IMG/VR virus record: IMGVR_UViG_3300043496_000031
Span: 1-43,196 of that record
Strand: one strand, 5' to 3'
Length of the DNA stretch: 43,196 bases
Source of the DNA: a virus
The position numbers were made by a program, and so were the translations under genes. Below the pieces are notes generated by a model. That model did not search any database. It saw nothing but the letters and a program-made list of their open reading frames with translations, and was not told where the DNA came from. Positions 2,145-32,912 of this stretch are shown one piece after another; within the stretch, counting starts at the first letter, position 1, and each line of letters opens with the position of its first letter.

Positions 2145-5100
2145 TTAGAACGCCCAGAGGGAAGTGTCCCAGATGGCGGAGCCCCAGATGGCGTAGCTCT
2201 CACTCGACGCTTGCTCACAGCCGAAGATGGCGTAGAGCGTGCCCTGTCGCCACTCCCACCGGATCTGTTCAATGTGCATCGGCATAGAGATGCCGGACTG
2301 CTGATCCTGAACCGCAATCCGATCACTGATCTGGCGATTGAGCGCCGCCAGCGTGGTGGTTTGAGTCACGCACGGAACGGTGATCGTCACCTGGGGACGC
2401 GGCTCCCGGTACCGCTGCACCACCACGTTACAGAAGTCGCGGGCCACTTCCGGGTTAAGCTCACGCCGCAGCGGCAGGGGATACGTGCGCCGTCCCCGTT
2501 TCGTCACGCTGGCGATGGTCTTTACGTCTGCGGCGTTCTCGCTCATTACCACTTTGTTGGTGATCGGGATGGACTGCGCCCGTAGCTGGAGGTTGCTCAC
2601 GGACGCGCCTCCGGATCCCGCCGTCAAGAAAATGGTGGTGGTTGCACCCGCTGTCCGGGTGAGCGAGACGCTCGCAATAGAGCCGGACACGATGGTGAAA
2701 TCCGTTCCAGCTACCGGCGTAATCGCGGCCTGGAAGGGATCCGTAGGCCGGACGGTGTACCCCTTCACTTCCGAGTTACCGAGCGAGACGCTCTGCCCAA
2801 GTTGCCAGACCACGCCGGAGGTTGCCGCGGCCCGCACGTTCACTTCTACAGAGCAGACGTTGACTACATCCTTCAGGCCGGGCTCATAGCCAAGCTCCGG
2901 AGAGCGCCACGGTTCCGGCCCGGTGTCCGTGAAGACGGCTTGCACCGTGGTACAGCGCGGTTGCAGGAGTCGGTACGTTCGTCCCTCAAACACGATCCGC
3001 CCGGAGCCGTCTTCGTAGACGGCGGCTCCCGGCCCTTCCATGGAGAGAAGCTCCACCATGGCCGTAAAGGCGTCCTGATCGTCCAGCCACCACCAATCCA
3101 GGACGGTGGAGCCCGTAGAGATGACACGATCACCAGCGGGCCAGCCAGCGGCATCCAGGAGGTACCCCAACGCCGTGTGTGTGGCGATGTTCTGGTAGAT
3201 CCCCGTAGTGATGCGGTTCCCACGAAGACGGCTCAGCGTACCCAGAGCGGGTATCCCCACCGTCTGACGGCCGAAGGCTGGCTGTTGCGGGATGTTGTCC
3301 AGGACTCCCGTGAAGAGGTTGTAGGTGGTGCCACCGTACTCCACACTCCAGCGGGTGGCCCGGCCAGGCTCTAGCAGCGTGGCCAGCGGGCTCTCTGCGT
3401 TTGCGGGAGAGTAGCGGCGATGGCGGTTGTCCAGCGTGGCGGAGTAGTTTCCGGCGGCTGGCGGAGCTAGCTGGCGGATCTGATCCCGGCCCCTGGACGC
3501 GGCTACGTCCTGCATGAAGAGCAGATCCCCGGTTACCTCTTCGTAGCTGTCCGCGAAGTCCCCATCGGCACTCCAGTCCACATAGAAACGGTGCTTCGGC
3601 GGAGCCAGGAGAGTGGTGAAGCTCAGGACAGGGGAGGTTGCAACGTTCCCCCGCAGATCGGTCGCGGTTACCTGAATGTAGTAGGTGGTATTCGGGATGA
3701 GCGGCGTATTGATCCCGACTCCACCGGGAAGCCCAAAGCGGAAGGTGTGGAACGTCCCCAGGTTGCTTCCCCAATTCCCTACATCATCGAAGGGGAATAC
3801 GCCGGTCTGGTTGTAACGGAGCGTGACGCTCGATACCGGCTCATCGGTGGAGAAGATCACCATTGCGCCGGTTGACGTGATACCGGCGATGGTGAGTCCG
3901 ATGATCTGGGGAGGCGTAACGTCCCGTAGCTGCGCCTGGAAGAGTGCCTGGGAGGATCCCCGCGCCTGGATGATGGCCCGGAGTGCTGAGGCGGAAGTCC
4001 CCCTGGCCGTGAAGCTCGTAGCCGCCGCACCAGCGAAAACGCCGGTAGCCCGCTTCCGGACACGGGTAACGAAGCTCGTAACACCAGCGCCGGTACCCCG
4101 CAAGAGTGCCGATCCGCCGAGTGCCACGCGGTAGCTGGCCGTAAAGACGGCTCCGGCCACCCCGGCAGCGGAGAAGGTGACGGAGGCGAAAGAGCTTCCC
4201 TGCCCGTAATCGCTCCCGCCGTACTCCTGGATCCCGTAACCGGAGTCTGCCTCCAGGACGGCCCGGATGCTGAAGTCATCCCAAACCGGGCGGCCGTTGG
4301 GATTGGTGTCCAGGACAGCGATCCCGGCCCGCGTCCCCGTCAGGTGGCTGGTAGCCGCCTGGACTACTAGCTCCCCATCGTGATACGCGGCCACTTCTCC
4401 ACCACGTACCGCCAGGGTGAGCGTGTGGGTACTGCCAGGAGCCAGGACGTTCCCGAGATTGACATAGCCGATCAGCGTAGAAACGCCGTTGTATTGCTCC
4501 CATACCTCCACTTCATTGGAGCCATCCTGGCGGAGATACCGGGCATAGATGTAGTTGCTCCCGGCGTACCGGGCCACGACTCCGGCGTACCAATCCGCCA
4601 CGGCATAGGCGGGTGTGGTGTTGGGGAGCGTGATGGCCGCGGAGACAGCGTGGTTGCTCCCGGCAGAGCCCGTAGAGCGGGTGGCCGTTCCGGTCTGCGC
4701 CGCGGCCGCTAGAGACGCGCCGCCCGCGTTGAGTACCCAGGAGCCTCCGGTGGTTTCCCAGGCGGAGCTATACGTGGTGAGCGCCGTCCCTGCGGTTCCC
4801 GTGAAGGAGTCGGACACCACCGGAGCGGCGGTAGCGATGGGTGCGGAGGGGAATGGCCCCAGAGCTTCAGGGAGGGTGATCGTCTCCGGCCACGCGCCCC
4901 ATTCGTCTACCGTGCTGCCGGTGTTGAGGTACACCGCGATCCCGGTGTTTGCGGCGTTCAGGACGGTGGCGACGTAGCCGGTTACATCCTGCTGATCGAT
5001 GTAGGCACGGACGCCAGCGCCGTCATCGTAGAGGGATAGGACGTGCGTGCTGGAGGCGTTCAGGTGGTACGCGCCGGTCTGCGTCAGAGGGGAGCCGTCT

Positions 5101-8100
5101 GCCCCGTTGTAGATCCCGCAGAGAGTCGTATCGGCGTAAAACTCCAGCCAGCTACTTCCATAGCGGAAGAGGATGGAGACGCCGTTATTGGCGGCTCCCG
5201 TCACCACCTTGACTTGGAAGAGCCCTACACGGGAGGGGAGGGAAATCACCCGGATCCCGTCCCACGCGGTAGAGACGCTCAGCCGGTTGGACGTGATCCC
5301 CGGCGTTCCCGTGAGGGTGTAGACGGCTCCGCCTTCCTCCGCCGTGGTGCCCAGAGTCCCACGGGTGAAGGTGTCCCCGAAGTGCGCCAGCCCGAATCGA
5401 GTGAGCGCCCCAGAAGGTACGTCCGCGGCGTCATGGAGGCTGACTCGATCTACCAGCGTGCCTCCGCCCAGGATCTCTTTAGCCGTGAGATGGACGTAGA
5501 CGTTGGCCGGATCGTCAGAGGCAACGGAGAGCCCTGCGATCCGAGCTTGCGGCCAGGTACCGAATTGGTTCCCGGACACCACCATGAGGTACCCGCCACC
5601 GGGACGGCGGAAGATCGCATGGAGATAGGTGTTGCTGTACGGGATGTACCGATCTGTGACGAACGCGCCCGCGTAGTAGCGCGGTGGAAATGCCGGGTAG
5701 CTCCGAGCAATCCCGTTGGGGATGGGATCCTGAGCCGCGGCCGTGTCTTCGATGGTGAGCCCCGGCCCATCACCAGGAGCGTTGGTGTGCCGGAAGACAC
5801 CCACCACGGCAGCGAGTCCGGTGAGCCCGTTCCGCGGGTGCGGGCCATGGACGAGTCTGGGATCCCCCCAGGTGTTAGAACCGCCCAGGATGCGGAGGTA
5901 CCCGTTGTCCGGCGCTAGCGCACTGGTGGTGTCCGTGACAGCCCAGGAGGAATCGGGAGCCCCTCCGAAGGTGTCTTCGAAGATCACGCCTACCGGCGGA
6001 TCGATCCCCATCTGGTAGCGATCCGCTACCCGCTGTGGGGAGAACGCCGTACGGTAGATGGCTACTTCGTCAACTTTGGTGAAGGCGTAGAAGTCCGCTG
6101 TCCGCCCAATCGTGAAGTCCACATCCGTCCGGGTGATGACTCCGGAGGCGGCCATCTGGGCGTTCTGCGTCCCACCGGAAGCCAGATTGCCCAGGACACC
6201 GTTGACGTAGCACTGAAGCAGCGCCCCGGTGTAGACCATGTGGATGTGCGTGCGGGCGGAGGGAGTGACGGCTACCTCTAGGGTGTGTTCCGTCCCGCTG
6301 CTGTTGGTGAAGCGGACTTCGAGCTTGTTTGTGGCCTGGAGATGGAGAACATACGCATCCCCGTTCCCGAATGCCCGGAAGCCAAAGTAGCCCCGGTGGC
6401 CACCGGGATTGTTCAGCGTGTTGACGATCCCCTCTAGCGTCCAGGCCGGAGTATTCGCCAGCCCTGAAGATGCGCCGGAGACGAAGGCGTAGCCGTTGGG
6501 GAAGACGCCTAGCCCATCGGAGAAGCTGACGGCTTTATCGGTGTTGTCCGTCAGGAGTCCGGTTTGCCCGAGAAGGGTGAGCCCGGCGTAGGTGCCATGG
6601 CGCTCATTGCCCGAAGAGTCGAAGCAAACCGCGCCGGTTGACTCGTTGAGCCGATAGTAGCCCCACGGCCCCGAGGACAACGTATCCAGGCCGTAAAGAT
6701 CGGTCACGGGGGCGGCCCCTCCCCCGCCCCCGGACGCTAAAGGGTCGTCGGATCCCGTGGGGAAGGGAGACGGCTTCGCATCGAAGACACGGACGTAATC
6801 CACTTCCAGGCGTGGCTCCGTGCCGAGCGGAGGATCCGTGGTGGTGGAGCGCAACGGGGAGCCCGGCGCTTCCCAGTTGGGATCCATCACCATATCTATC
6901 CGCACGCCCAGATCTGCTGTGGCAAACCATGTGGCGTTGGTGCCGGTAAGCTCCGCCTTCAGGATCCCGTCCCGGTAGTAGCGGACAGCCGTAGCCGTCC
7001 ATTCCACGCCGTAACGGTGCCAGCCGGTTACATCCTCATCGAAGGTACCGGCGTTCCCGGACACGCCCGGAGTCGGGTTGTTATGCCAGCCCGCGGCCCA
7101 CGGGCGGCCGGTGCTGTTCCCGAAGACTTCGAAGGCGTCTAGCTCAGCGCCCTCTTTCCCGTCAGAGCGCCCAGAGATGTTGTTAAACAGCCACAGCGCC
7201 GGGAACATCCCGCGCACCGGGTTGGGCATCCGGGCTCGCCATTCGAAGTAGCCGAAGCGCCAGCGGAGCGGCGTAGGAGCTAGCTGGTGGTTGGTGACAA
7301 GGTAGCCACCCATCCAGGTAGCGCCACCCACGTTGCTGACTCCAGCGGGTGTGCGCTGTGCCTTCACCGTCAGGACGGAGTCCGCTACGCTGAAGGGATT
7401 CTGGGCCGGGTGCTGGACAGGAGAGGTATTCCAGGAGAGCCCGGCGTAGTCCTGGTACCCGGTGGCCAGCGTGCCTCCGGACTCGTAGCCACGGGTGCGC
7501 CACGTCCCGCTGGTGGGAGCCGCGTCCGTAGCCAGGGAGAGGGAGTCAAATTCGTCACTCCAGAGCAGCCCCGGCGTACTCGTAGACGCCAGCGTGGTGA
7601 AGCTCCCCGTAATGGCCGTGGCGTTCCCGCCCGCGTCCCGACTCCACCCGCGTATCTGGTAGGTGGTATTCGGAGAAAGCCCGCTCAGGTTGACTACGTG
7701 GGATGTGGTGAGCGTGCCCACCCGCGCCGTAGAAGCCCCGTAGACAGCCGGTACCAGCGCATTGGAAGCGCCGTACTCTAGCCGGGTATCACTGGTGACG
7801 TTGGATGACCATGAGACGGTAGCGCCGTTGGCCGTGATGGACGTGATACCCAGGCTGAAGAGCGTAGGGGAGACGCCGCCAGTGTCATCCGCGTATCCCT
7901 GGCTAACGGCGTAGGTTTTGGCGTCCGCATACCGCTTATTGCTGGTCTGGTAGACGCCTTCCCCTTCCCCAAATCCGTTGCTCTGGCTATCGAAATACTG
8001 ATGGGTAACGTAGCGATGGCTACCCTCCAGGCCAGCGGGCTCCGTGATCCAGGCGGCGGAGTGGTTCCAGGAGAGAACATTCCAGCCCATCCCCGGTACG

Positions 8101-9572
8101 AGTACGAGCTTCGTATCTCGCTTCGTGGTGTCATCGGTACGAGTCCGCAGATCCGCCACAACCGCCTGAGTGATCGACTCCCACGCGCCCTCCGCCGTAG
8201 CAGAGCCGGAGGCGGCTCCCCGCTCAAACAGATCCAGATCTACGGTGATCGTCTGGCCGGACACCGCGTCATTGCTGTGGATCTGGATACAGAGGTTCTG
8301 AGCAGACGTGATGGGATTGCTGGCAAAGTCACACGTCACGTCTACCCAGGTGCCGGGTACCAGCGTGGTAACGGTGCCGTTCTGCCAGGCGTAGGAGGCA
8401 TTCTGCCACTCGAATCTGGCTTGCCAGGTGCCAGACGGCGTGCCGTTGAGTCGCACGCGCCCGCGGAGGATGTTCCCTGAGCCGCTCACAGAGCCACGCT
8501 CAGCCCGCTGGAGATGGAAGCCAGAGCTACCTACTACTTTGGCAATCCGTAGGGCTCCTGAGCCCTCATACGGCGTAGTGGTGGTATGCGTGACGGTGGC
8601 CCCAGAGAAGTCCGCGGCCCAACTCTGTACCGTCCCATCGTTCCAGTTATTGAGCGTGGTACCGCTGAAGCTCCCGGAGGCGGCCGGTACATCGTGCGGC
8701 TCATTCATAAGCTCGTACGCCACCACACCCAAATGAGTGCGGTAGACGTTGCTGAGCCTGCGCCACACGTCTACGAGGTACTCCGGCCCGATCTTCCCGC
8801 CATCCTCTGAGGTTGGCCCGGTGCTAGCCAGATCGATCCCGGCTTCCGCCCGCAGCACCAGGACTTTCTTTGTCCCCGAATCGCTGTACTCATAGCGGGC
8901 GTAGTTATGCAGATCCAGGATCAGCCCTACATTGTTGGCCAGGCACGCATCCGCCACGGCCGTGATCCGGCCCAGGTAGGTGGAGTCCAGGGCTCCCAGA
9001 AGCGTAGGCTGGAGACGCTCCCAGGAGATGGGGAGCCGCACCACGCCGATCCGCCGCGCCGCCATGGTGGCGATATCCCCGGCGGAGGGGAAGAAGTAAT
9101 CGACTCCGAAGGTGCCCAGGTGGGCGTTGTCGAATCCGGCTTGCTTGTGCCCAAACTCACCACCCGCCAGGTTGACGCCACGGCGGATGATCGTCCCGTC
9201 CGGACGGGGGAAGGATTCCACCACGTCAATCCCGCCGGGACTCATCATCTTATCGATGTTTGTTCCGGTGGCGGAGTAGGTGGAGTCGTTGGTGTGAATG
9301 CCGAGGTTGTAGTCCCCCCAATTCGGGCCGGACGCCCACGCCGTTACCCACAGCCCGGAGGAGTCGGCGGCCGTGTACCACTGGCGGAAGAGGGTTTGCC
9401 AGAGCGGCACATCCGTCACGTAGGCAGCCGGAGGCGAGCTATCCGCCCGTGCGTGGGGGATCCCCACTTCGGTGATCGCGCCTCCCTGGAATCCCGTCTT
9501 CCCCGTCACTCCGGAGAGGAAGGTGGTAAAGGTGCCCAGACGGGCCAGGGTTTTCTTTGCTAACGCATCCAT
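2145..9572 (-). CDS. Giant tail hub/depolymerase: GH5, FN3, GH16, lectin domains, hub-like C-terminus
   Basis: 2475 residues. Approximate domain order: N-terminal region 1-125; GH5-like barrel ~130-565 with MNEPHD (E291, the expected acid/base) and HQYFD (H524), interrupted at ~305-452 by a carbohydrate-binding-like beta-sandwich; FN3 ~571-660; GH16 laminarinase-like domain ~667-930 with ELDAFE (E810, D812, E815, the usual catalytic triad pattern); LamG-like lectin ~957-1187; three further concanavalin-like domains to ~1767, opening with D-x-F sequences; a short repeat linker ~1790-1880; FN3 ~1885-1987; and a C-terminal domain ~1992-2475 starting with VDWSADGDFAD, of a type I associate with tail hub proteins. 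Likely cleaves host surface beta-glycans at adsorption. Starts two bases after the spike gene with no clear ribosome site, suggesting coupling. The GH5 nucleophile strand is not evident. Confidence 0.9.
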   Translation of the reverse strand: MDALAKKTLARLGTFTTFLSGVTGKTGFQGGAITEVGIPHARADSSPPAAYVTDVPLWQTLFRQWYTAADSSGLWVTAWASGPNWGDYNLGIHTNDSTYSATGTNIDKMMSPGGIDVVESFPRPDGTIIRRGVNLAGGEFGHKQAGFDNAHLGTFGVDYFFPSAGDIATMAARRIGVVRLPISWERLQPTLLGALDSTYLGRITAVADACLANNVGLILDLHNYARYEYSDSGTKKVLVLRAEAGIDLASTGPTSEDGGKIGPEYLVDVWRRLSNVYRTHLGVVAYELMNEPHDVPAASGSFSGTTLNNWNDGTVQSWAADFSGATVTHTTTTPYEGSGALRIAKVVGSSGFHLQRAERGSVSGSGNILRGRVRLNGTPSGTWQARFEWQNASYAWQNGTVTTLVPGTWVDVTCDFASNPITSAQNLCIQIHSNDAVSGQTITVDLDLFERGAASGSATAEGAWESITQAVVADLRTRTDDTTKRDTKLVLVPGMGWNVLSWNHSAAWITEPAGLEGSHRYVTHQYFDSQSNGFGEGEGVYQTSNKRYADAKTYAVSQGYADDTGGVSPTLFSLGITSITANGATVSWSSNVTSDTRLEYGASNALVPAVYGASTARVGTLTTSHVVNLSGLSPNTTYQIRGWSRDAGGNATAITGSFTTLASTSTPGLLWSDEFDSLSLATDAAPTSGTWRTRGYESGGTLATGYQDYAGLSWNTSPVQHPAQNPFSVADSVLTVKAQRTPAGVSNVGGATWMGGYLVTNHQLAPTPLRWRFGYFEWRARMPNPVRGMFPALWLFNNISGRSDGKEGAELDAFEVFGNSTGRPWAAGWHNNPTPGVSGNAGTFDEDVTGWHRYGVEWTATAVRYYRDGILKAELTGTNATWFATADLGVRIDMVMDPNWEAPGSPLRSTTTDPPLGTEPRLEVDYVRVFDAKPSPFPTGSDDPLASGGGGGAAPVTDLYGLDTLSSGPWGYYRLNESTGAVCFDSSGNERHGTYAGLTLLGQTGLLTDNTDKAVSFSDGLGVFPNGYAFVSGASSGLANTPAWTLEGIVNTLNNPGGHRGYFGFRAFGNGDAYVLHLQATNKLEVRFTNSSGTEHTLEVAVTPSARTHIHMVYTGALLQCYVNGVLGNLASGGTQNAQMAASGVITRTDVDFTIGRTADFYAFTKVDEVAIYRTAFSPQRVADRYQMGIDPPVGVIFEDTFGGAPDSSWAVTDTTSALAPDNGYLRILGGSNTWGDPRLVHGPHPRNGLTGLAAVVGVFRHTNAPGDGPGLTIEDTAAAQDPIPNGIARSYPAFPPRYYAGAFVTDRYIPYSNTYLHAIFRRPGGGYLMVVSGNQFGTWPQARIAGLSVASDDPANVYVHLTAKEILGGGTLVDRVSLHDAADVPSGALTRFGLAHFGDTFTRGTLGTTAEEGGAVYTLTGTPGITSNRLSVSTAWDGIRVISLPSRVGLFQVKVVTGAANNGVSILFRYGSSWLEFYADTTLCGIYNGADGSPLTQTGAYHLNASSTHVLSLYDDGAGVRAYIDQQDVTGYVATVLNAANTGIAVYLNTGSTVDEWGAWPETITLPEALGPFPSAPIATAAPVVSDSFTGTAGTALTTYSSAWETTGGSWVLNAGGASLAAAAQTGTATRSTGSAGSNHAVSAAITLPNTTPAYAVADWYAGVVARYAGSNYIYARYLRQDGSNEVEVWEQYNGVSTLIGYVNLGNVLAPGSTHTLTLAVRGGEVAAYHDGELVVQAATSHLTGTRAGIAVLDTNPNGRPVWDDFSIRAVLEADSGYGIQEYGGSDYGQGSSFASVTFSAAGVAGAVFTASYRVALGGSALLRGTGAGVTSFVTRVRKRATGVFAGAAATSFTARGTSASALRAIIQARGSSQALFQAQLRDVTPPQIIGLTIAGITSTGAMVIFSTDEPVSSVTLRYNQTGVFPFDDVGNWGSNLGTFHTFRFGLPGGVGINTPLIPNTTYYIQVTATDLRGNVATSPVLSFTTLLAPPKHRFYVDWSADGDFADSYEEVTGDLLFMQDVAASRGRDQIRQLAPPAAGNYSATLDNRHRRYSPANAESPLATLLEPGRATRWSVEYGGTTYNLFTGVLDNIPQQPAFGRQTVGIPALGTLSRLRGNRITTGIYQNIATHTALGYLLDAAGWPAGDRVISTGSTVLDWWWLDDQDAFTAMVELLSMEGPGAAVYEDGSGRIVFEGRTYRLLQPRCTTVQAVFTDTGPEPWRSPELGYEPGLKDVVNVCSVEVNVRAAATSGVVWQLGQSVSLGNSEVKGYTVRPTDPFQAAITPVAGTDFTIVSGSIASVSLTRTAGATTTIFLTAGSGGASVSNLQLRAQSIPITNKVVMSENAADVKTIASVTKRGRRTYPLPLRRELNPEVARDFCNVVVQRYREPRPQVTITVPCVTQTTTLAALNRQISDRIAVQDQQSGISMPMHIEQIRWEWRQGTLYAIFGCEQASSESYAIWGSAIWDTSLWAF
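3935..4170 (-). repeat. Short Gly/Ala-Ser-Phe repeat linker in the hub gene
   Basis: Within the hub protein (about residues 1790-1880), units such as GAGVTSFVTRVRKR and GAAATSFTARG recur. The plus-strand reading GAAGCTCGTA, which encodes T-S-F on the minus strand, appears twice about 60 bases apart. The same unit type fills the large adhesin at 33-34.3 kb, so this is a short copy of that repeat family acting as a linker between the lectin domains and the hub domain. Confidence 0.65.
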
Positions 9573-9574
9573 GC

Positions 9575-11914
9575 TCAGACCACGTTGTTAGCCACGACGG
9601 TTCCGGTGCCGCTTGTCTCCGTGGCTCCCGTCCCGAGTGTGGCGTTAGTGCCAGAGTTGGTGTTGTGTTTGAAGGTGTTCCCCACCACGGCGTTATGGTG
9701 GGCTCCGGTGATTTCCCGGACGAAGCTCCGGCATTTGGCGTTATTGGCCGTGTTCTCATCCGTGGCGAACGTGCAGCCCGTGATAGTGGAGAAGGCTCCC
9801 GTAGCCAGCACTACGGCGCTATAGGTGTTGGTGGTGGTAGCTCCGGCGGAGATGCTGGTGAAGTCACAGCCCGTGATACTCACCCGCCCTCCCTGGATCC
9901 GCACCATATCCGCCTCCCCGGAGCCATCGAAGATGCAGCCCTGAAGGCGGGAGCCGTTCGCATCCTGGAGGGTGTAATGGCGTTGGTTCTGCCCTCCGCC
10001 CACGAAGCAGCACGAGTCAAAGAAGTTGAGCCCGCTCCAATCCTTCACGTCCCCCTTGTCTTCGGGGTTACCCGTCCCGCCGCCGTTGTTTTCGAAGTCG
10101 CAATCGGTGATGTAGTTTTCGTCTGAGCCTTCTAGCCGGAGCCCCTGTCCATTGCCACCAGACTGGCTCCCGCCATCGAATAAGCAGCCACGTACTTTGT
10201 TGTGGTGTCCAAACTCGCCAGAGGGGATCCCCCTCAAATGGAGCCCGATATGATACGGGCGGCTGAAATGGATGTTCTCGAATGTCCAATGAACCGCCCC
10301 AATCGCAGCGATGAGTCGTCCCGTCCCGGTGGTCATGGCGGCCTGATCCGCGGGCCGATGGTCGATCTTGAAGCCACCCATGTAGCCGCCGGAAATGATC
10401 CCGTTAGAGCCCGTACCGGCGCTCACATCGAAGAAGAAAATATCGTTATTGTGGTTCGTCCCGGCTTCGATGGTGGTGTTATCGAAGCCCGCGCCAATGA
10501 TCCGGATCCGCTTCCGGATCTGCCAGGGAGTCCCCTCCATGCGGAAGATCCCCGGCGGGAAGTACACCGTCCCGCCCACCGGACACGCATCAATCGCGGC
10601 CTGAACCGCGGCCCGCGTCCCGGTGGCGTCGTTCTGATCGTTCCGTGCGCCGTAGCGGGTTACATCGTGGACTTCGGAGTTGCCCACATAGCCCACGTTG
10701 TCCCGGTAGATGTTGTCTCCCTGGTAGGTGTTCACCAGGACTCCACCGGCTCCAGACAGCCCGCCCTCTTTCTTCAGGACGTTATGCGCGATCAGGTTGA
10801 AGTGGGTATTCCCCGCGCCGTCCAGAACATCGTTGATGAGGTACCGCGTTACGGCGTCCGTTCCGTGGGAAGAGAAACGGTTATTCGTGATGATGTTCCG
10901 GGAGGCTCCGAAGGCAAGCGCCACGCCGTCTGCCTGGCCCGCGTTCCCGTCCCCGATGTTGAAGCTCGCATTCCCGTCTAGGATGTTCTCGTTTCCGGTG
11001 ATGCGGAAGGTATGGCCGGGTACGCCATCGAAGATGTTCCCGATCCAGCGCCCGCGGGAGCCGTTGGACTTGATCCCGTTGGTGGAGGCAGCGGAGCGCC
11101 CACCCACGAAGCTGTTTCCGATGATGGCGTTATTCCCCACCACGTTCTCTACGATGTGGGACTCGCCGTTGAATTCGAAATTGCAGCCCGTGATGAGGTT
11201 CTCTTCCCCGTCCCCCAGATCCATCCCGAAGCCCGCGGTAGAGGCGATGACGGAGTTACGTCCGAGTACCACCGTCACGCCCATGATGACGTTGGCCCAT
11301 GGCCACGCACCCACGCCGTCCACTTCCATCCGGATCCCGGCGTTCCGCGGCTCCGTGATAAACAGATCGGAGAGGATGCAACGGTTCCCTCCAGCCATCC
11401 TCACCGCGCCGGACGTAGCCGCCTGAGCGCCGCCATTGCATTCAATGGTCATGTGCGCCAGGTAGATCCCCCTGGAGTGCGCTACGCCACCATCGCTCAC
11501 GAAATCGAAGGCGTAGACGTTGGCTCCGCCGGAGAGTCGCACCTTCGTCCCGAAGCCAGAGCCCACGATCATCTGATGCGAGTTAGGCGTGATAGATCCG
11601 GAGAGGTTGTACTGTCCCTCCGTCAGCACCACCGTCCCGCTCTTGAAGGTGTCAAAGGTGGGTAGATCGTTGAGCGCCGCGTTGATCGTGGCCTGATCCC
11701 CGGAGCCACTACACACCCGGTGCGCCTTCACCTTCACCGCAGCGGAGGCGTTGGACGCGGCCACCACGATCACATTGGGCCGCTTCAGCGCCGTTTCCAG
11801 CGCCACCACGGCGCTCTGAAGCTTGTTCGTGTGTTCCGCCAGGACGGGATTCCCCGGCCCGTTCGTCTTCGTGCTGAAGGTGTCCAGTGCGCCCGGATAG
11901 TCAGAGATACCCAT
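9575..11914 (-). CDS. Tail spike with two pectate-lyase-like beta-helix domains
   Basis: 779 residues, starting three bases after the tape-measure stop and ending two bases before the hub gene. After a ~60-residue head-binding-like N-terminus, two right-handed beta-helix regions are visible. The first (~65-430) has repeated N/G-rich coils with GN, GC and V/I ladders. The second (~435-779) opens with VTRYGARNDQNDATGTRAAV, the classic start of Pectate_lyase_3/tailspike domains (Y-G-A-x-x-D-x-x-D-x-T-x-A-x-x). Such spikes bind and often cleave host capsule or lipopolysaccharide. The catalytic residues cannot be assigned by eye. Placement between tape measure and hub suggests a baseplate-attached depolymerase. 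The two helices may be a duplicated module or one long helix. Confidence 0.85.
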   Translation of the reverse strand: MGISDYPGALDTFSTKTNGPGNPVLAEHTNKLQSAVVALETALKRPNVIVVAASNASAAVKVKAHRVCSGSGDQATINAALNDLPTFDTFKSGTVVLTEGQYNLSGSITPNSHQMIVGSGFGTKVRLSGGANVYAFDFVSDGGVAHSRGIYLAHMTIECNGGAQAATSGAVRMAGGNRCILSDLFITEPRNAGIRMEVDGVGAWPWANVIMGVTVVLGRNSVIASTAGFGMDLGDGEENLITGCNFEFNGESHIVENVVGNNAIIGNSFVGGRSAASTNGIKSNGSRGRWIGNIFDGVPGHTFRITGNENILDGNASFNIGDGNAGQADGVALAFGASRNIITNNRFSSHGTDAVTRYLINDVLDGAGNTHFNLIAHNVLKKEGGLSGAGGVLVNTYQGDNIYRDNVGYVGNSEVHDVTRYGARNDQNDATGTRAAVQAAIDACPVGGTVYFPPGIFRMEGTPWQIRKRIRIIGAGFDNTTIEAGTNHNNDIFFFDVSAGTGSNGIISGGYMGGFKIDHRPADQAAMTTGTGRLIAAIGAVHWTFENIHFSRPYHIGLHLRGIPSGEFGHHNKVRGCLFDGGSQSGGNGQGLRLEGSDENYITDCDFENNGGGTGNPEDKGDVKDWSGLNFFDSCCFVGGGQNQRHYTLQDANGSRLQGCIFDGSGEADMVRIQGGRVSITGCDFTSISAGATTTNTYSAVVLATGAFSTITGCTFATDENTANNAKCRSFVREITGAHHNAVVGNTFKHNTNSGTNATLGTGATETSGTGTVVANNVV

Positions 11915-11916
11915 GA

Positions 11917-14900
11917 TTACCTCACGGCGTAGGCTTCGGCGGTTTCAGGGGAGAGGCGTCCACGCCTAGCTCCGTCAGAGATGGCCCCCACCACGGCATC
12001 CGAGAAGCCAGAGCCGCTCATCCGGACGCTCATATTGGCCATGGCACTGGCCACAGCCGCGGCGATGTAGCCAGCCATCCGGCGCATGGAGTCGTCATCC
12101 ATCCCCATGGAGGATCCGCCCATCCCGCGCCGGGCCATGAGCCCCATGGCTTGCGCTTGATCCGGGCGGAGTACCACTTCCCCGCCATGCGCCAGGACAG
12201 GCACATTGGCTCCGAGTGGGCCGGGAATGACACCACCTGTGTGGAAGCCCACGAAGCTCCGCGGGTTGCGCGTAGCGCCGTTGTCCCGTACCTCAAAGTG
12301 GAGATGCGGGCCGGAGCTATTCCCCGTAGAGCCCTCACGCCCGATCACCTGGCCACTGATGACGCTCTGGCCAGGACGTACGGAAATGTCGCTCAGATGG
12401 CCGTACAGCGTGCGGAAGCCACCCGGATGGCGGATGGCTACAAGGTTCCCGTAGCCGCTGGTGTCCCACCCGGCAATGTCCACCACGCCCGTCCGAGCGG
12501 CCACCACAGCGGCTCCGTGCGCCGCGGCGATATCGATTCCGGTGTGGACTCCGCCTGGGTAGATAGAGCTATACGGCGTCTTCCCGAATTCCTGGGTAAT
12601 GACTCCACGGAGCGGCGTTACCCAGGAGCCGGAGTCTTCAATCGCGGGGATCGGAGCGTCTGAGCCCACCGGGCCACCACGTCCGGGGAGGGATGGCATG
12701 GAGATAGAAGGGAGCTTCGGCTTCCAGGAGTCGATCAGGCTATTCGCGCCGTTGATGGCGTTCTGCACCACGTCCCGGAGCGCATTCTTCAGCCCATCCG
12801 CTGCCTGGCCAATCGCCTCCTTGATCCCGTCGATGATCCGGGAGCCAATCTCCTTTGCCTTATTGAAGGCTTCCTCCGCCAGCCGCCCTAGCTCCTTAAG
12901 GATGTTCTCAATCGCTGTCCCGATTGCGCCCGTCATGTTGTCCCAGGCTTCGCGCATGGTGCGGACGATCAGCCCATCCGGGGAGCCCCAGATTTCATTG
13001 TGCTTCTTCCCGGCTTCGTCCCACTTCTCTCCGATGAAGGTTGCGAGCTTCGGCAGCACATCCCGTACCCGGTCGTCAATGATCTTCCAGGCGTTCTCTA
13101 CCGCCTTCTTCATCTCTTCCCACGCGCCGCCCCAATCCCCCTGAAGGATCTTCAGCGCGGTAAGGATGAATCCCTTGAGTAGCTCCCACAGCGTCCGGAT
13201 CACCGTGTCTATGGTGGTAAAGGCGGCCGTAGCTACCACCTGGATCGCGGGCCACGCCAGATCCCACACCTTCTTGAAGTCCGCAAACACGGGTGTGAAA
13301 TAGTCGATGAAGCCCTGCCAGACGGTTTGCGCGATGGCCGTGAGGTTCGTCCAGGCGGCGCTAGCCTCCGGAGCTACCTCCCGGCTGAAGGTGTTCAGCG
13401 CATCCGCCACCATCCCGAAGATGGGAGAGACGTAATCCCAGAAGGTTTGCACGATCCCCTGGATACCTAGGAAGTTGGTATTCCAGGCCAGCGCCAGCGC
13501 CGCCGCAGCCAGCACCACAGCCCCTAGCGCCAGCACCACCGGCCCGGCCAGGACGGCTCCTACCGCACCCGCGATCACGGAAACAGCCGCGAAGCCCGCC
13601 ACCAGCGTGGGGAGGATGGCCACCACCGTCAGCGCCACCGTGGCCAGGACACCGAGTCCGGCAGCCACCACGGCTCCGATGGCGATGAATTTCTGTACCT
13701 CAGGGGAGAGGTTCAGGAAGGCGTTGAGTACGTTCGTAAACGCCTTCACAATCTCGTTAGCGGCCGGGATGAGGATCTTCCCGATGGTGATCCCCACCGT
13801 TTCAATGGAGCCGCTCATGGCTTCCATGGAGCCGTTGAGGTTGTCGAGTCGCGCCTTCGCTACGTCTACCGCGGCCACTTCACCCATGGCGGCCGCCATA
13901 TCGTTGAAGCCCTCTGCGCCCTCTTTGGCCAGGATCGCTCCGGCCCGGATGGCGTCAGAGCCAAACAGGACTTCCAGGGAGGCGAGCTTTTGCTGTTCCG
14001 TCATCCCTTCCAGGGACTTTTGCAGCACGCCCGCCACTTCGCTCATGGACTTGACGCGGCCCTCAGAGGTAAAGAAGGCGTTGGACATAAGATCCAACTC
14101 CCCTTGTGCCTCATTCCACGCCTCCGCCTGTTGCTTCGTCATGGTGCCCAACCCGTTCCAGCCGGTTACCGCCATCTGGAGTTGGTGCATCTGATCGGTG
14201 AGCGAATCGGAGACAGGCTGGATCCCGTAGTTATTCAGGATTTCCAGGACTCTCGCCTGGTTGGTGGTGGTGAGTCCGAGCTTGGCGAATTCCTCCCGTG
14301 CCTTCGCGGTAGCTGGCTGGAGGGACATGAACATGGTTTTGAGCGAAGTACCGGCATCCGATCCCGCAATGCCGTTCTTGCCCATGAGCGCAATCCCGGC
14401 GGCCAGATCGTCAAAGCTGAAGCCCGTAACGGCCGCCACAGCCCCCGCGGCCTGGAGGCTGAATTTGAATTGGTTCACGTCAATGGCAGAGGCGTTGGCC
14501 GCGCCAGCGATCAGATCGCTAACGTGCGCCATGTCTGTGCCCTTGAGGTTGAATTGGGCGAGTGCGTTGGCGGCGATGGTCGCGGCATCCGGAAGGCTCA
14601 CACCACCGGCAGCGGCCAACGCCAACGTAGACTCGGCCGCGCCGTCTAGCACGTCCTGGGCGGTAAGCCCACCCTTGATTAGCTCTTCGATCCCGGCCGC
14701 GGCTTCTTTGGCGGAGAAGCTCGTATCTTTGCCCAGGCGGAGCGCCAGGTTTTCCAGGCTCCCGGAGAACGCCTGTACGTCTGAGGGAGACATGACGGCT
14801 AACGCGCCGTCCATGGTCTTCTCAAACTCAGCGGCCACGCCCACGGACGCACCCAGAGCCGCCGTGAGCCCGGCGGTTGCGCCAGCTACGCCCGGAAGAA

Positions 14901-15018
14901 GCGTCTTCGCGGCGGAGGCAGCGGAGCCCACGCCACCCATGGCCCGCTCAACATCTTTGAGCTTGTCTGAGGCGTAGTCTTCCGCAGCGATACGGATGGC
15001 TAGAGCTAAGTCAGCCAT
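11917..15018 (-). CDS. Tape-measure protein with C-terminal M23 endopeptidase
   Basis: 1033 residues. The N-terminal ~400 residues match the TP901-type tape-measure core: helical, Ala-rich, with an EFEKTMDGALAVMS segment and an AGSDAGTSLKTMF segment. Hydrophobic transmembrane-like stretches lie near 430-515, followed by long amphipathic helices to ~770. Residues ~805-930 form a peptidase M23 (LytM) domain with zinc ligands visible as GVHTGID (H825, D829) and PHLHFE (H905, H907). It sets tail length and probably cuts peptidoglycan peptide cross-links during DNA entry. The ATG is preceded by GGGGGAAG. It follows the tail-assembly chaperones, as expected, although a plus-strand ORF intervenes. 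Confidence 0.95.
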   Translation of the reverse strand: MADLALAIRIAAEDYASDKLKDVERAMGGVGSAASAAKTLLPGVAGATAGLTAALGASVGVAAEFEKTMDGALAVMSPSDVQAFSGSLENLALRLGKDTSFSAKEAAAGIEELIKGGLTAQDVLDGAAESTLALAAAGGVSLPDAATIAANALAQFNLKGTDMAHVSDLIAGAANASAIDVNQFKFSLQAAGAVAAVTGFSFDDLAAGIALMGKNGIAGSDAGTSLKTMFMSLQPATAKAREEFAKLGLTTTNQARVLEILNNYGIQPVSDSLTDQMHQLQMAVTGWNGLGTMTKQQAEAWNEAQGELDLMSNAFFTSEGRVKSMSEVAGVLQKSLEGMTEQQKLASLEVLFGSDAIRAGAILAKEGAEGFNDMAAAMGEVAAVDVAKARLDNLNGSMEAMSGSIETVGITIGKILIPAANEIVKAFTNVLNAFLNLSPEVQKFIAIGAVVAAGLGVLATVALTVVAILPTLVAGFAAVSVIAGAVGAVLAGPVVLALGAVVLAAAALALAWNTNFLGIQGIVQTFWDYVSPIFGMVADALNTFSREVAPEASAAWTNLTAIAQTVWQGFIDYFTPVFADFKKVWDLAWPAIQVVATAAFTTIDTVIRTLWELLKGFILTALKILQGDWGGAWEEMKKAVENAWKIIDDRVRDVLPKLATFIGEKWDEAGKKHNEIWGSPDGLIVRTMREAWDNMTGAIGTAIENILKELGRLAEEAFNKAKEIGSRIIDGIKEAIGQAADGLKNALRDVVQNAINGANSLIDSWKPKLPSISMPSLPGRGGPVGSDAPIPAIEDSGSWVTPLRGVITQEFGKTPYSSIYPGGVHTGIDIAAAHGAAVVAARTGVVDIAGWDTSGYGNLVAIRHPGGFRTLYGHLSDISVRPGQSVISGQVIGREGSTGNSSGPHLHFEVRDNGATRNPRSFVGFHTGGVIPGPLGANVPVLAHGGEVVLRPDQAQAMGLMARRGMGGSSMGMDDDSMRRMAGYIAAAVASAMANMSVRMSGSGFSDAVVGAISDGARRGRLSPETAEAYAVR

Positions 15019-24650: not shown

Positions 24651-25472
24651 CTACCTACGGGATCGCTGCGGCCACTCAGGAAGTAAGTAGCGGGCGGATT
24701 CCTTCCCGTCAGCGTTGGAGACGTACAACTCCCGGACGTACTTCCCAATCCGCACATCCATACTGTTGGTGAGTTGTGATCCCACGGCGGCGAGAATCTG
24801 TCCAGGCGTAAACGCTTTGAGCCGATCTACTACTCGCTTCCGCTCCGCTACATCCTTGTATCGGGCGTAAAACTGCTCTAGGCCGGAGACAAACTCCCCG
24901 CGCAAGGGAGCTACGCGATGATCCGGCCACGCCTCCAGAAGCGTATCCAGAATCCATTCCATACCGGCTTCCCCGTGGAAGGTGTAGATCCTTCGAAGCG
25001 GAACCACGCACTTGATTGGGTGTCTCGCTCTGGCGTTCCCGAAGAGCGCCATCCCTCTGGCCTGGACGATCCTCCGCACATCTACGGCGGTTGGCTCTCC
25101 CGCCTCTAGATCCGCCTTGAACCGCTGCGCCTGGGTTACGGGACGGGATGAATTCAGGACGGAAAAGAGGCTCGCTTCCTGCTCATACGTCATCCCGGTG
25201 TAGAGGTAGCAGTCCCACGCTGCAATCTTCAGGATGACCAACGCATCCCGCCTCCGCTGTCCGTCTACCAGCCAGTAGATCCCGTCCCGGTGGCTCACAG
25301 AGAGCGCCTGGCACGCATGAGGATTGAAGTGGGTAGCGATGTACTCCGAGTCTTTTGCCCCCGGTGGCCGCTGATACGGCGCTAGCTGCAAGCTCGCAAC
25401 CTGCAACTTTGGCCGCATCATCCCATCCGAGTCTTCGGACAACTCCAGATCCACCGCCGGCATAGCAACCAT
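24651..25472 (-). CDS. ParB-like nuclease-fold protein
   Basis: 273 residues from the ATG at 25472, which has AAAGGAG eight bases upstream; a longer frame would enter the promoter -10. The N-terminal half contains LAPYQRPP (near 31-38) and IYWLVDGQRRRDAL (near 65-78), the ParB/Srx core with the G-Q-R-R-x-x-A signature that binds nucleotide. The rest is helical. Phage ParB-like proteins of this type often sit alone as accessory genes and may act as nucleases, CTP-binding regulators or DNA-binding proteins. It has its own sigma70-like promoter and lies between two terminator-like hairpins, so it is a self-contained unit inside the head module. Confidence 0.8.
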   Translation of the reverse strand: MVAMPAVDLELSEDSDGMMRPKLQVASLQLAPYQRPPGAKDSEYIATHFNPHACQALSVSHRDGIYWLVDGQRRRDALVILKIAAWDCYLYTGMTYEQEASLFSVLNSSRPVTQAQRFKADLEAGEPTAVDVRRIVQARGMALFGNARARHPIKCVVPLRRIYTFHGEAGMEWILDTLLEAWPDHRVAPLRGEFVSGLEQFYARYKDVAERKRVVDRLKAFTPGQILAAVGSQLTNSMDVRIGKYVRELYVSNADGKESARYLLPEWPQRSRR

Positions 25473-25498
25473 GCTCAGGGCTCCTTTACCTGAACAAG

Positions 25499-25527
25499 AT
25501 AGCACGGCGTAGAGCGGAGTTGGTCAA
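25499..25527 (-). promoter_or_regulatory. Promoter of the ParB-like gene (TTGACC-17-TGCTAT)
   Basis: -35 TTGACC (25527-25522) and -10 TGCTAT (25504-25499), spacer 17 bases. It lacks the CCAC/STGG spacer ends of P1-P4, so it is probably regulated differently. The -10 is 27 bases from the start codon, leaving a short leader with the AAAGGAG site. Confidence 0.7.
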
Positions 25528-31159: not shown

Positions 31160-31688
31160 TGAGGTTCATCGTCCGATCTACGATCCCGCCCACTTCCTTA
31201 CTGATCTGCATGAGCAAGGCACGATGCTCCCGGATCAGCGCGGCGTCTACGCTCCACTTCCGCTGAGTCACTTCCTCCTGGATCCGCACACCACGAAAGC
31301 TCTTCGTCGTTTGCTTCACCACGGTTTCCTCTAGCGTCAGGAGCCCGGTACCAGCGCCAGGCACATCCGGGTACGCCTGGGCATAGTGCTTCCCGCGCTC
31401 CGTGACGATCCGATCCAGGAGCCCCACATGGTGAGACATGAGCCCTACGCGGCGTCCCTTGCGGCCCAAACCACGGGACACCACGGCATCCTCCGCCTCT
31501 ACCGCAGCGGACTTCACCCGCTCCATGAAGGCGGGAACGTCCCGCCAGCGGTACAGCGTAGCCAGGTGGACACCCACCCGCTCTGCAATCTGTACGCCTT
31601 CCAGATCACCTTCCCCCAGAAGCCTTGCCGCCTCCAGGCGTTGATCCGTCCAGGTAAACGCCTTCGCATTCGCAGTCATGCCGCCCAT
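31020..31688 (-). CDS. Terminase small subunit-like protein with HTH
   Basis: 222 residues from the ATG at 31688, which has GGAG seven bases upstream; another ATG nine bases later lacks one. The N-terminal helix-turn-helix (EGVQIAERVGVHLATLYRWR, residues ~30-49) resembles DNA-binding domains of small terminase subunits. Central helices and an acidic, Pro-rich tail follow. It lies immediately before TerL and overlaps it. DNA recognition for packaging is inferred from the HTH and synteny. Confidence 0.75.
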   Translation of the reverse strand: MGGMTANAKAFTWTDQRLEAARLLGEGDLEGVQIAERVGVHLATLYRWRDVPAFMERVKSAAVEAEDAVVSRGLGRKGRRVGLMSHHVGLLDRIVTERGKHYAQAYPDVPGAGTGLLTLEETVVKQTTKSFRGVRIQEEVTQRKWSVDAALIREHRALLMQISKEVGGIVDRTMNLNVNVDADSGSEPPPDLESLRREVLGRLAPGDERKAAITVTALPVPE

Positions 31689-32557
31689 CGGAAGGCTCCG
31701 TACTTCTCAGGAGGCAAGAGGCTCCCGCTCACCGTTGGTTGACTCTGGCCATCCCCGAAGTCCAGCACGCCTTCCAGGGGATTGATCGCGGTTCGCTTCG
31801 GGTTGAGCGGGACTTCCACCATAAATTGTGCGTCCCCATCCTCAGCCTCCAGGAGCCGCCGCATCAGGGGATACCGGATCCGGTAGAGCCGCATATCTGG
31901 CCAGGAGTTGATGCCGTAGAACGTCTCCGAGTTATCGTTGGCTCCGATCAGGCACGTTTGGTGGCCGCCGATCATGCGTGCCCGTGGCCCGATCTGAAGG
32001 TAGCGATCCTCCAGGGAGAACATGGAGTCGTACCAGTTGGTGCCGATGGTGACCGGGCCAGCTACCGCCCAATCCGTGGTGTCTGCCAGGAGCAACGCTC
32101 GTAGCTCATCCACCGTGGTGGCGTTCCACCATTCCGTAATCAGGCCAAGCTCCCGGAGGGATCGACACGCCGCACGTCCGCTGCTTCCCTCATAGAACGG
32201 TGGCACAAGCTCAGAGCCCGGCCATTCGTCTAGCTCTTGATTCCGCGCATAGAGCGCATAGTGGGCGTACGGAAGACTCGCCAGGGGACGCGGGTTAGGC
32301 CAGCCGCACAGCCGGTTGGTGGCCGCCTCTTCCGTGCAAGAGCTTCGGGATCCCTGCTCGCGCCAGCGCAATGGGGGAGCGGCGGGGAGGAAGATCCGGT
32401 GTTTGCGGAGCTTCAGTGGCCCGCCCGCCCGGATCGGCTGGACGGCGGAGGCGCGGTAGGCCAGATCCCGGCTGTCCGGTGCGTGGAGTCGTCCCATCGG
32501 GAACCGCTCCGGTACCCGAGTCTGCGGCGGCGGCGTGGGGAGGATGATCGGAGGCAT
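31676..32557 (-). CDS. Papain-like (C1A-type) cysteine peptidase
   Basis: 293 residues. Catalytic signatures of the papain fold are in order: WREQGSRSSCTEEA gives oxyanion Gln68 and nucleophile Cys74; GGHQTCLIGAND gives His199; YGINSWPD gives Asn217 followed by the conserved S-W. The first ~55 residues are Pro-rich, possibly a virion anchor or propeptide; no signal peptide is seen. Related peptidases occur among phage structural genes. It could process a virion protein or degrade host surface protein. It ends overlapping TerS by 13 bases and starts one base after the Ig-like gene. Confidence 0.82.
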   Translation of the reverse strand: MPPIILPTPPPQTRVPERFPMGRLHAPDSRDLAYRASAVQPIRAGGPLKLRKHRIFLPAAPPLRWREQGSRSSCTEEAATNRLCGWPNPRPLASLPYAHYALYARNQELDEWPGSELVPPFYEGSSGRAACRSLRELGLITEWWNATTVDELRALLLADTTDWAVAGPVTIGTNWYDSMFSLEDRYLQIGPRARMIGGHQTCLIGANDNSETFYGINSWPDMRLYRIRYPLMRRLLEAEDGDAQFMVEVPLNPKRTAINPLEGVLDFGDGQSQPTVSGSLLPPEKYGAFRWAA

Positions 32558-32558
32558 T

Positions 32559-32912
32559 TCAGCTATTCACCACCTGTGAGGGCTCTACCCAAAATCTGCC
32601 TTCGTCTGCTTGTTCCACGTTGCCCACACCAGCGAGTCGGTAGTGCCACAGGCCGGGCACCGTGACTCGGTGGTTGGCGTAGAAGCGTCCGGCCGCCTCT
32701 TGCGCCAGCGCCGGAGTGCCAGCGGGCCAGCTATACGTGGTGGGGTTGACTTCCGACTCCGGTGGGGGAACCACCGTCAGAGTCGCTGAGGTTGGATTGG
32801 TGGCCGTTCCCGCCACGTCCGTGAAGGCTCCCGCGCCTTCGATCCAGGTGGGATTGCCCAACGGCACCACGTCCATGATCTGGTACTTCGGTACGTCTGC
32901 GCTGATCGGCAT
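32559..32912 (-). CDS. Small Ig-like virion protein
   Basis: 117 residues, beta-rich, with VPGLWHYRLAGVG and EGRFWVEPS near the C-terminus. This V-P-G-x-W-x-Y-R-x-x-G pattern followed by E-G-x-F-x-V is common in short Ig-like phage structural proteins next to fibre genes. It lies between the repeat adhesin and the papain-like peptidase, touching both. A decoration or appendage role is inferred. Confidence 0.65.
   Translation of the reverse strand: MPISADVPKYQIMDVVPLGNPTWIEGAGAFTDVAGTATNPTSATLTVVPPPESEVNPTTYSWPAGTPALAQEAAGRFYANHRVTVPGLWHYRLAGVGNVEQADEGRFWVEPSQVVNS

Follow-up and report, generated by a model that had tools for sequence, protein, structure and literature searches.

The closest solved relatives of the GH5 domain described here, by both sequence and fold, are RBcel1, XacCel5A and Pseudomonas stutzeri Cel5A. 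RBcel1 comes from a cellulose-synthesis locus. These enzymes present the same catalytic residues as the phage domain but, unlike it, they have the normal strand order and no insert after beta4. GH5 domains are also known from phages. In Xanthomonas phage LucasX, the protein LUCX_247 is a GH5 whose NEPH is followed by an inserted domain, at the position of the insert in our locus, although its strand order is normal; this protein (L002:4022-6151) is annotated as hypothetical. Erwinia phage S6, whose host is Erwinia amylovora, encodes gp095, a protein with a GH5 domain whose cellulase activity was verified on a model substrate, and cellulose is the first receptor of this phage (PMC9544554). We liken gp095 to our locus by its description as a phage GH5 tied to cellulose: its predicted catalytic residues are E570 and E689, and the parts of the article consulted do not mention a permutation (PMC9544554). 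Natural permutations of a catalytic barrel are rare, the relation of the GH70 glucansucrases to GH13 (PMC11046441) being the sole clear case met in the portions of the literature searched. The permuted chain of GH70 starts at alpha3, whereas the GH5 domain presented here belongs to a different family and starts at alpha6. No natural permutation of GH5 was found in the titles, abstract openings and passages that were searched, and a term search for "permut" in Aspeborg 2012 returned zero uses (PMC3526467). Permuted barrels (GH70/GH13) and phage GH5 enzymes were both already known, but within these literature searches a permuted GH5 in a giant hub-fused tail protein appears to be new.

The window, i.e. 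the whole stretch of 43,196 bases that was analyzed, is the record of a tailed phage. Its genes for terminase, portal, head protease, major capsid and tape measure all lie on the minus strand, and actinophages are among the nearest relatives of the capsid and tape measure proteins. The features discussed below are the following (aa, amino acids of the 2475-aa protein unless another protein is named).

11917..15018, minus: tape measure protein with an M23 peptidase domain (its aa 824-919, E 8e-33)
9575..11914, minus: adjacent beta-helix protein (PF13229, E 1.7e-5, just under its cut-off)
2145..9572, minus: whole ORF of 2475 aa in one open frame, a likely tail protein with N-terminal enzymes and a C-terminal hub-like part
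7878..9572, minus: circularly permuted GH5 domain, aa 1-565 (end at about 565), as read from half-domain HMMs, an AlphaFold2 model and permuted relatives
9282..9572, minus: alpha6-beta7-alpha7-beta8 of the GH5 barrel, aa 1-97, with the nucleophile E35 and W79 (beta7-8 HMM; conservation of E35)
8685..9188, minus: beta1-beta4 of the GH5 barrel, aa 129-296, with R179, H222, N223 and the acid/base E291 (PF00150; beta1-4 HMM, E 1e-40)
8205..8672, minus: predicted jelly roll resembling a carbohydrate-binding module (CBM), aa 301-456, in the beta4-alpha4 loop (PF21253; VIA-align)
7893..8204, minus: alpha4-beta5-beta6 and end of the permuted domain, aa 457-560, with H524 and Y526 (AlphaFold2 elements; conserved columns)
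7593..7856, minus: fn3-like domain, aa 573-660, next after GH5 (PF16656, E 2e-9; fn3, E 2.5e-5)
6771..7574, minus: GH16 domain, aa ~667-934, with E810 and E815 in ELDAFE (PF00722, E 9e-10; laminarinase chains)
6024..6470, minus: LamG or concanavalin-like lectin, aa 1035-1183 (PF13385, Laminin_G_3, E 6e-11, scanned in pieces)
4239..5993, minus: about three modules without a family, aa 1194-1778 (limits set by eye)
3921..4238, minus: repeat-bearing spacer, aa 1779-1884, similar to the repeats of an 877-aa protein at 32912-35545 (best stretch E 3.5e-5)
3612..3911, minus: another fn3-like domain, aa 1888-1987 (PF16656 scores below its cut-off, E 4.6e-6)
2148..3581, minus: hub-like tail domain, aa 1998-2475 (relative in contig L141; phrog_5313)

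The initial annotation described a single tail protein of 2475 residues without giving its strand. We confirmed that the ORF runs from 9572 to 2145 on the minus strand with zero internal stops. It is the second gene past the tape measure, in the order tape measure, beta-helix protein, 2475-aa ORF, and the beta-helix gene, which the initial annotation had also pointed out, ends 2 bases before the ORF starts. An assembly frameshift joining separate genes had been named as one of the outcomes that would undo this description. The third-position GC-content along the ORF is even (0.72-0.81 in 12/12 segments of 200 codons each), which argues against such a joining. Past the giant gene, two further minus-strand ORFs (1407-2135 and 725-1525) overlap by 119 bases and present no family match.

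The two glycoside hydrolase families reported for this protein are both found above their curated cut-offs. The profile PF00150 (Cellulase/GH5) scores 69.6 bits against a cut-off of 23.5 (E 4e-19), which assigns the domain to GH5 by sequence, but this match covers only aa 155-312 and profile positions 17-148 of 272. The motif LMNEP lies at aa 288-292, within an LMNEPH that carries the acid/base E291. Past LMNEPH come an insert of ~155 aa, then alpha4, beta5 and beta6 (HQYFD), and the chain passes directly into the fn3 domain, so that beta7 with the nucleophile and beta8 are absent between beta6 and fn3. The partial Pfam match and the missing nucleophile are what would be expected if aa 130-565 were a truncated, dead remnant kept for sugar binding and if aa 1-97 were an unrelated N-terminal tail domain. 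We consider this very unlikely, because the missing strands are found at the N-terminus, as ...GAITEVGIP... (with E35) and ...TAWASGPNWGDYNLGI... Indeed, aa 3-97 are recognized by an HMM of beta7-8 that was derived from nine relatives of normal order (E 9e-11 with Z=1), and aa 129-296 are recognized by the HMM of beta1-4. The beta7-8 HMM gives 35.7 bits to aa 1-130 and at most 11.7 bits to the best of 2000 shuffles, and no second segment of the giant protein appears in its top six. Against the PDB, aa 1-131 alone match GH5 endoglucanases only, at their residues 270-294 (a weak match, E 0.13), and aa 132-239 match residues 6-107 of the same chains. Pairwise evidence varies with the partner chosen, which is why we turned to the HMM test: none of 500 shuffles was as good as the real alignment of aa 1-125 with the GH5 of L003, whereas no signal was obtained with the GH5 of LucasX (88/500 shuffles reached the score).

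The permuted order and E35 also recur in relatives, E35 being kept in all 10 permuted rows that cover the position (10/10) and E291 in 47/48 alignment rows. The catalytic set was located by alignment as E291, E35, R179, H222, H524 and Y526, which we take to play their usual roles in GH5. The strands of the domain therefore run in the order 7-8-1-2-3-4-5-6 and not in the usual order from beta1 to beta8. Strand order is not the basis on which proteins are assigned to a sequence-based family. On the alignments and the predicted model together, aa 1-565 is a complete GH5 barrel in permuted order with both catalytic glutamates conserved, and we infer that it would be an active retaining beta-glucanase. 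The limits of about 130-565 first given for this domain were wrong: as the Pfam match is partial and the nucleophile is N-terminal, a construct of aa 130-565 would lack beta7, beta8 and the nucleophile, and the limits for expressing the GH5 domain should be corrected to aa 1 to ~565.

The predicted structure bears out the GH5 fold proposed by the initial annotation. We ran AlphaFold2 on an alignment of 48 rows (A4), composed of 11 permuted sequences and 37 normal-order sequences cut to beta1-beta6. The model (pLDDT 82.2; pTM 0.78) presents a (beta/alpha)8 barrel whose eight strands follow the order 7-8-1-2-3-4-(insert)-5-6. Its first part consists of H3-22, E31-37, H49-71, E75-81 and H112-120 (alpha6, beta7, alpha7, beta8 and alpha8), which places alpha6-beta7-alpha7-beta8 at aa 1-97, contrary to what a remnant would predict. 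It is followed by E131-135, E177-182, E216-221 and E283-287 (beta1-beta4), by the insert strands at 302-454, and by H460-477, E489-493 and E519-526 (alpha4, beta5 and beta6). Permuted relatives were part of the input alignment, so the model does not provide a fully independent check on the permuted reading. When compared with VIA-align, aa 127-558 of the predicted model match XacCel5A with Z 21.4 (218 aligned residues; rmsd 3.6). A previous alignment (A3) also contained rows for the beta7-8 half. Its conserved column (E139, in the GEFG of beta1) and its low identities pointed to a MAFFT misalignment of the beta7 GEFG with the beta1 GEFG, and it was replaced by A4, which lacks those rows.

The insert in the beta4-alpha4 loop matches PF21253, the galactose-binding-like domain of mannanases, just under the cut-off (E 1.3e-5). 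In the model, aa 304-452 superpose on the carbohydrate-binding part of mannanase 1wky with Z 19.2 (rmsd 1.8 over 141 aligned residues). The insert also matches CBM22 modules, and 4xuo and 2c26 give Z values of 15.2-15.9. Thus, aa 301-456 form a CBM-like jelly roll in the predicted structure and may bind a carbohydrate. We found no solved permuted GH5 among 60 of the 101 distinct PDB sequences that match the permuted profile: the best stretch in these 60 sequences never begins before profile position 109, and the two PDB alignments that we examined present the GH5 halves in normal order.

We then looked at how often the permuted order occurs. Two profile scans of viral sequences, each with alignments, yielded 35 distinct GH5 loci, and beta7-8 precede beta1 in six of them (L087, L104, L105, L106, L107 and L116). 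Two of these are clearly phages, L104 with terminase and portal genes and L087 with a portal gene. The permuted GH5 of phage L105 contains one in-frame TAG around position 8202, which may reflect a sequencing error, a broken gene or read-through. Among the 80 loci retained from 357 confirmed bacterial loci, four are permuted, and these are all labelled as Actinobacteria, Actinomycetota, Demequina or Rubrobacteraceae. Of 396 genomes drawn from the phylum of Demequina, 12 match at 1e-20, and 10 of these 12 matches extend across the permuted junction (query start 2-7, end 349-358). Four of the ten genomes (G001-G004) had supplied four of the query's six rows and the other six are new. A second draw from this phylum, largely overlapping the first sample, gave 11/396 matching genomes. 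In contrast, the permuted order was not seen in the matching genomes sampled from two other phyla, Pseudomonadota and Planctomycetota: no match starts before query position 44 in the phylum of Methylobacterium (17/299 genomes match) and none before position 96 in the phylum of a Planctomycetales genome (15/294 genomes match).

The stand-alone permuted enzymes end within two residues of one point, at GY in L006, L008, L068 and L116, at IY in L087 and at YGD in L007; L107 extends slightly past this common end. At the same point, the normal-order sequences L086 and L011 read GYAS and continue into alpha6. The half-barrels of our protein could in principle have been joined by a chance fusion or by an assembly artefact of this contig. 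The protein is known from a single metagenomic virus record, and whole-protein searches returned no close relative among viral contigs and none at high coverage among phage records; with the GH5 piece alone or the hub piece alone as single queries there were no matches, and relatives were found only through alignments. We nonetheless regard such a joining as extremely improbable, because other viral contigs and distinct actinobacterial genomes share this order with nearly the same breakpoint and because the third-position GC-content is even along the frame.

Several ORFs were observed to contain two GH5 domains (L088, L094 and L101, as well as G461 and G553 in the Methylobacterium phylum set). 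A tandem pair of domains is usually supposed to precede a circular permutation.

To follow the history of the permutation we built two trees, both without L105 because of its TAG-broken frame, and with L104 and L107 added by hand. In the 79-row tree, for which the halves were placed in canonical order, nine of the ten permuted rows fall in a set of 13 rows (SH-aLRT 99) together with four non-permuted rows. The normal-order L111 pairs with L106, and L116 lies outside the permuted set. Non-permuted sequences (L086, L011, L111 and L112) are thus found within or adjoining the permuted clade, which indicates that the history of this clade is not simple. In the 31-row tree, the AU test does not reject a grouping of the ten permuted rows (p 0.128), but a branch separating the permuted rows from all others occurred in 0% of the 200 bootstrap trees. 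A single origin of the permutation is therefore compatible with the AU test but not demonstrated by these sequences. An insert at the same place is found in L086 and L011, the nearest normal-order rows, in the giant protein itself and in L104, and is absent from the four bacterial permuted copies that were read. The insert may have been either lost or gained.

The surroundings of the permuted copies in bacteria were also recorded. As raw counts, a Wzz gene lies at most 5 kb from the permuted copy in 3/10 genomes (G208, G250 and G004, the copy of G004 being broken), and MurJ-type or PMT-type membrane proteins flank the permuted copies of L006, L008 and L128. Such neighbors would point to a polysaccharide as the target of the bacterial enzymes. 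The broken copy (G004:C70:17317-17893, in a Rubrobacteraceae genome) is a degraded permuted GH5 with stops and a missing middle, about 5 kb from the Wzz gene. A secreted enzyme of actinobacteria is the probable source of the permuted phage enzyme, and some copies of that secreted enzyme have polysaccharide genes of the Wzz type as neighbors. Profile annotation would take members of a permuted GH5 clade for truncated enzymes whose nucleophile is lost on paper, as was the case in the initial annotation and in the partial Pfam match.

Beyond the GH5 domain, PF00722 (Glyco_hydro_16) matches aa 771-880 with 38.7 bits against a cut-off of 22, which places this region in GH16. The motif E-x-D-x-x-E marks the GH16 family and is present as ELDAFE at aa 810-815. 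The same region scores below the cut-off of the EglC model. The initial annotation had further counted at least four concanavalin-like domains. One of them, the LamG domain, was recovered; the other three (aa ~1194-1778) had neither a Pfam match at E<=0.05 nor a relative in the DNA sets compared. Nothing was found in support of the processive attack that had been suggested from this architecture. The combination of GH5 and GH16 in one protein, as had been proposed, does seem unusual, since Glyco_hydro_16 was found in 0/37 viral GH5 ORFs. Multi-enzyme tail proteins, however, are not unique to this phage: one other viral ORF carries a GH8, several carry two GH5 domains, and a 1729-aa viral ORF (L106:5751-10937) combines a polysaccharide lyase (PF14099, E 8e-14) with a permuted GH5 and many similar short repeats.

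The hub-like C-terminus noticed at the outset is upheld by relatives in other contigs. Residues 1998-2439 are 33% identical over 442 aa to a 488-aa protein of viral contig L141, which is encoded directly after the tape measure gene of that contig. A second relative of the hub part (31%, aa 2010-2201) occurs as a separate ORF in the L104 record, which also contains a permuted GH5. The C-terminal part matches phrog_5313, the family of phiSASD1 gp38, weakly (E 5e-5); the function of phrog_5313 itself is not known, and the hub-like part is N-terminal in gp38 but C-terminal in the giant protein. An AlphaFold2 model of the hub part reached a pLDDT of 45.8 and was not used. Since the relatives in L141 and L104 are separate proteins, the giant protein looks, from these comparisons, as if enzyme and lectin modules had been fused N-terminally to a hub-like tail protein.

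A role in the virion is favored by the location of the gene past the tape measure and by the homology of the hub-like part. We consider it likely that the 2475-aa protein is a virion tail component, whose complete permuted GH5 with its CBM insert would cut a beta-glucan-like polysaccharide at the tail tip. Under this proposal, the GH5 would cut a host-surface polysaccharide or exopolysaccharide as the tail tip meets it, the GH16 would provide a second cutting activity, the CBM and LamG modules would act as binders, and the hub-like part would tie the enzymes to the tail tip. The GH5 cellulase of phage S6, with cellulose as first receptor, is a phage precedent for this proposal. Alternatively, and rather than adsorption, the purpose of the enzymes could be to release or penetrate the host's own glucan sheath at a late stage of infection, or to degrade plant or fungal glucan in soil. 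The nearest characterized relatives are cellulases for the GH5 and laminarinases for the GH16, and such enzymes also act on plant or algal glucan. With the fusion to a hub-like part and the position after the tape measure favoring a virion role at entry, we judge this alternative rather unlikely.

Returning to the tail-tip proposal, the beta-alpha loops of a barrel lie on its catalytic face. A cut in the beta6-alpha6 loop, combined with this geometry, would take the two termini of the domain off the bottom of the barrel and place them on the catalytic face. One side of the barrel would then carry the cleft together with the CBM insert and the chain that leads to the other modules. We see roughly even chances for a broader scenario, in which a permuted GH5 clade of Actinomycetota and phages had its tether moved to the catalytic face and was taken by phages from host polysaccharide-biosynthesis loci, the CBM over the cleft and the fusion to GH16, lectins and hub making a multi-enzyme glycan-cutting tail tip. 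The permuted GH5 could thereby constitute a test case for why barrels are re-cut, as the linker of this virion-borne enzyme would lie on the catalytic face.

Finally, three other minus-strand genes of the window can be mentioned. The 877-aa protein (32912-35545), whose repeats resemble the spacer of the giant protein, presents no family match at E<=0.01. A peptidase-like protein (31676-32557; phrog_16701, E 3e-13) is encoded near the terminase gene, and a ParB-like protein (24651-25505; phrog_1033, E 1.6e-11) lies between the head and portal genes.
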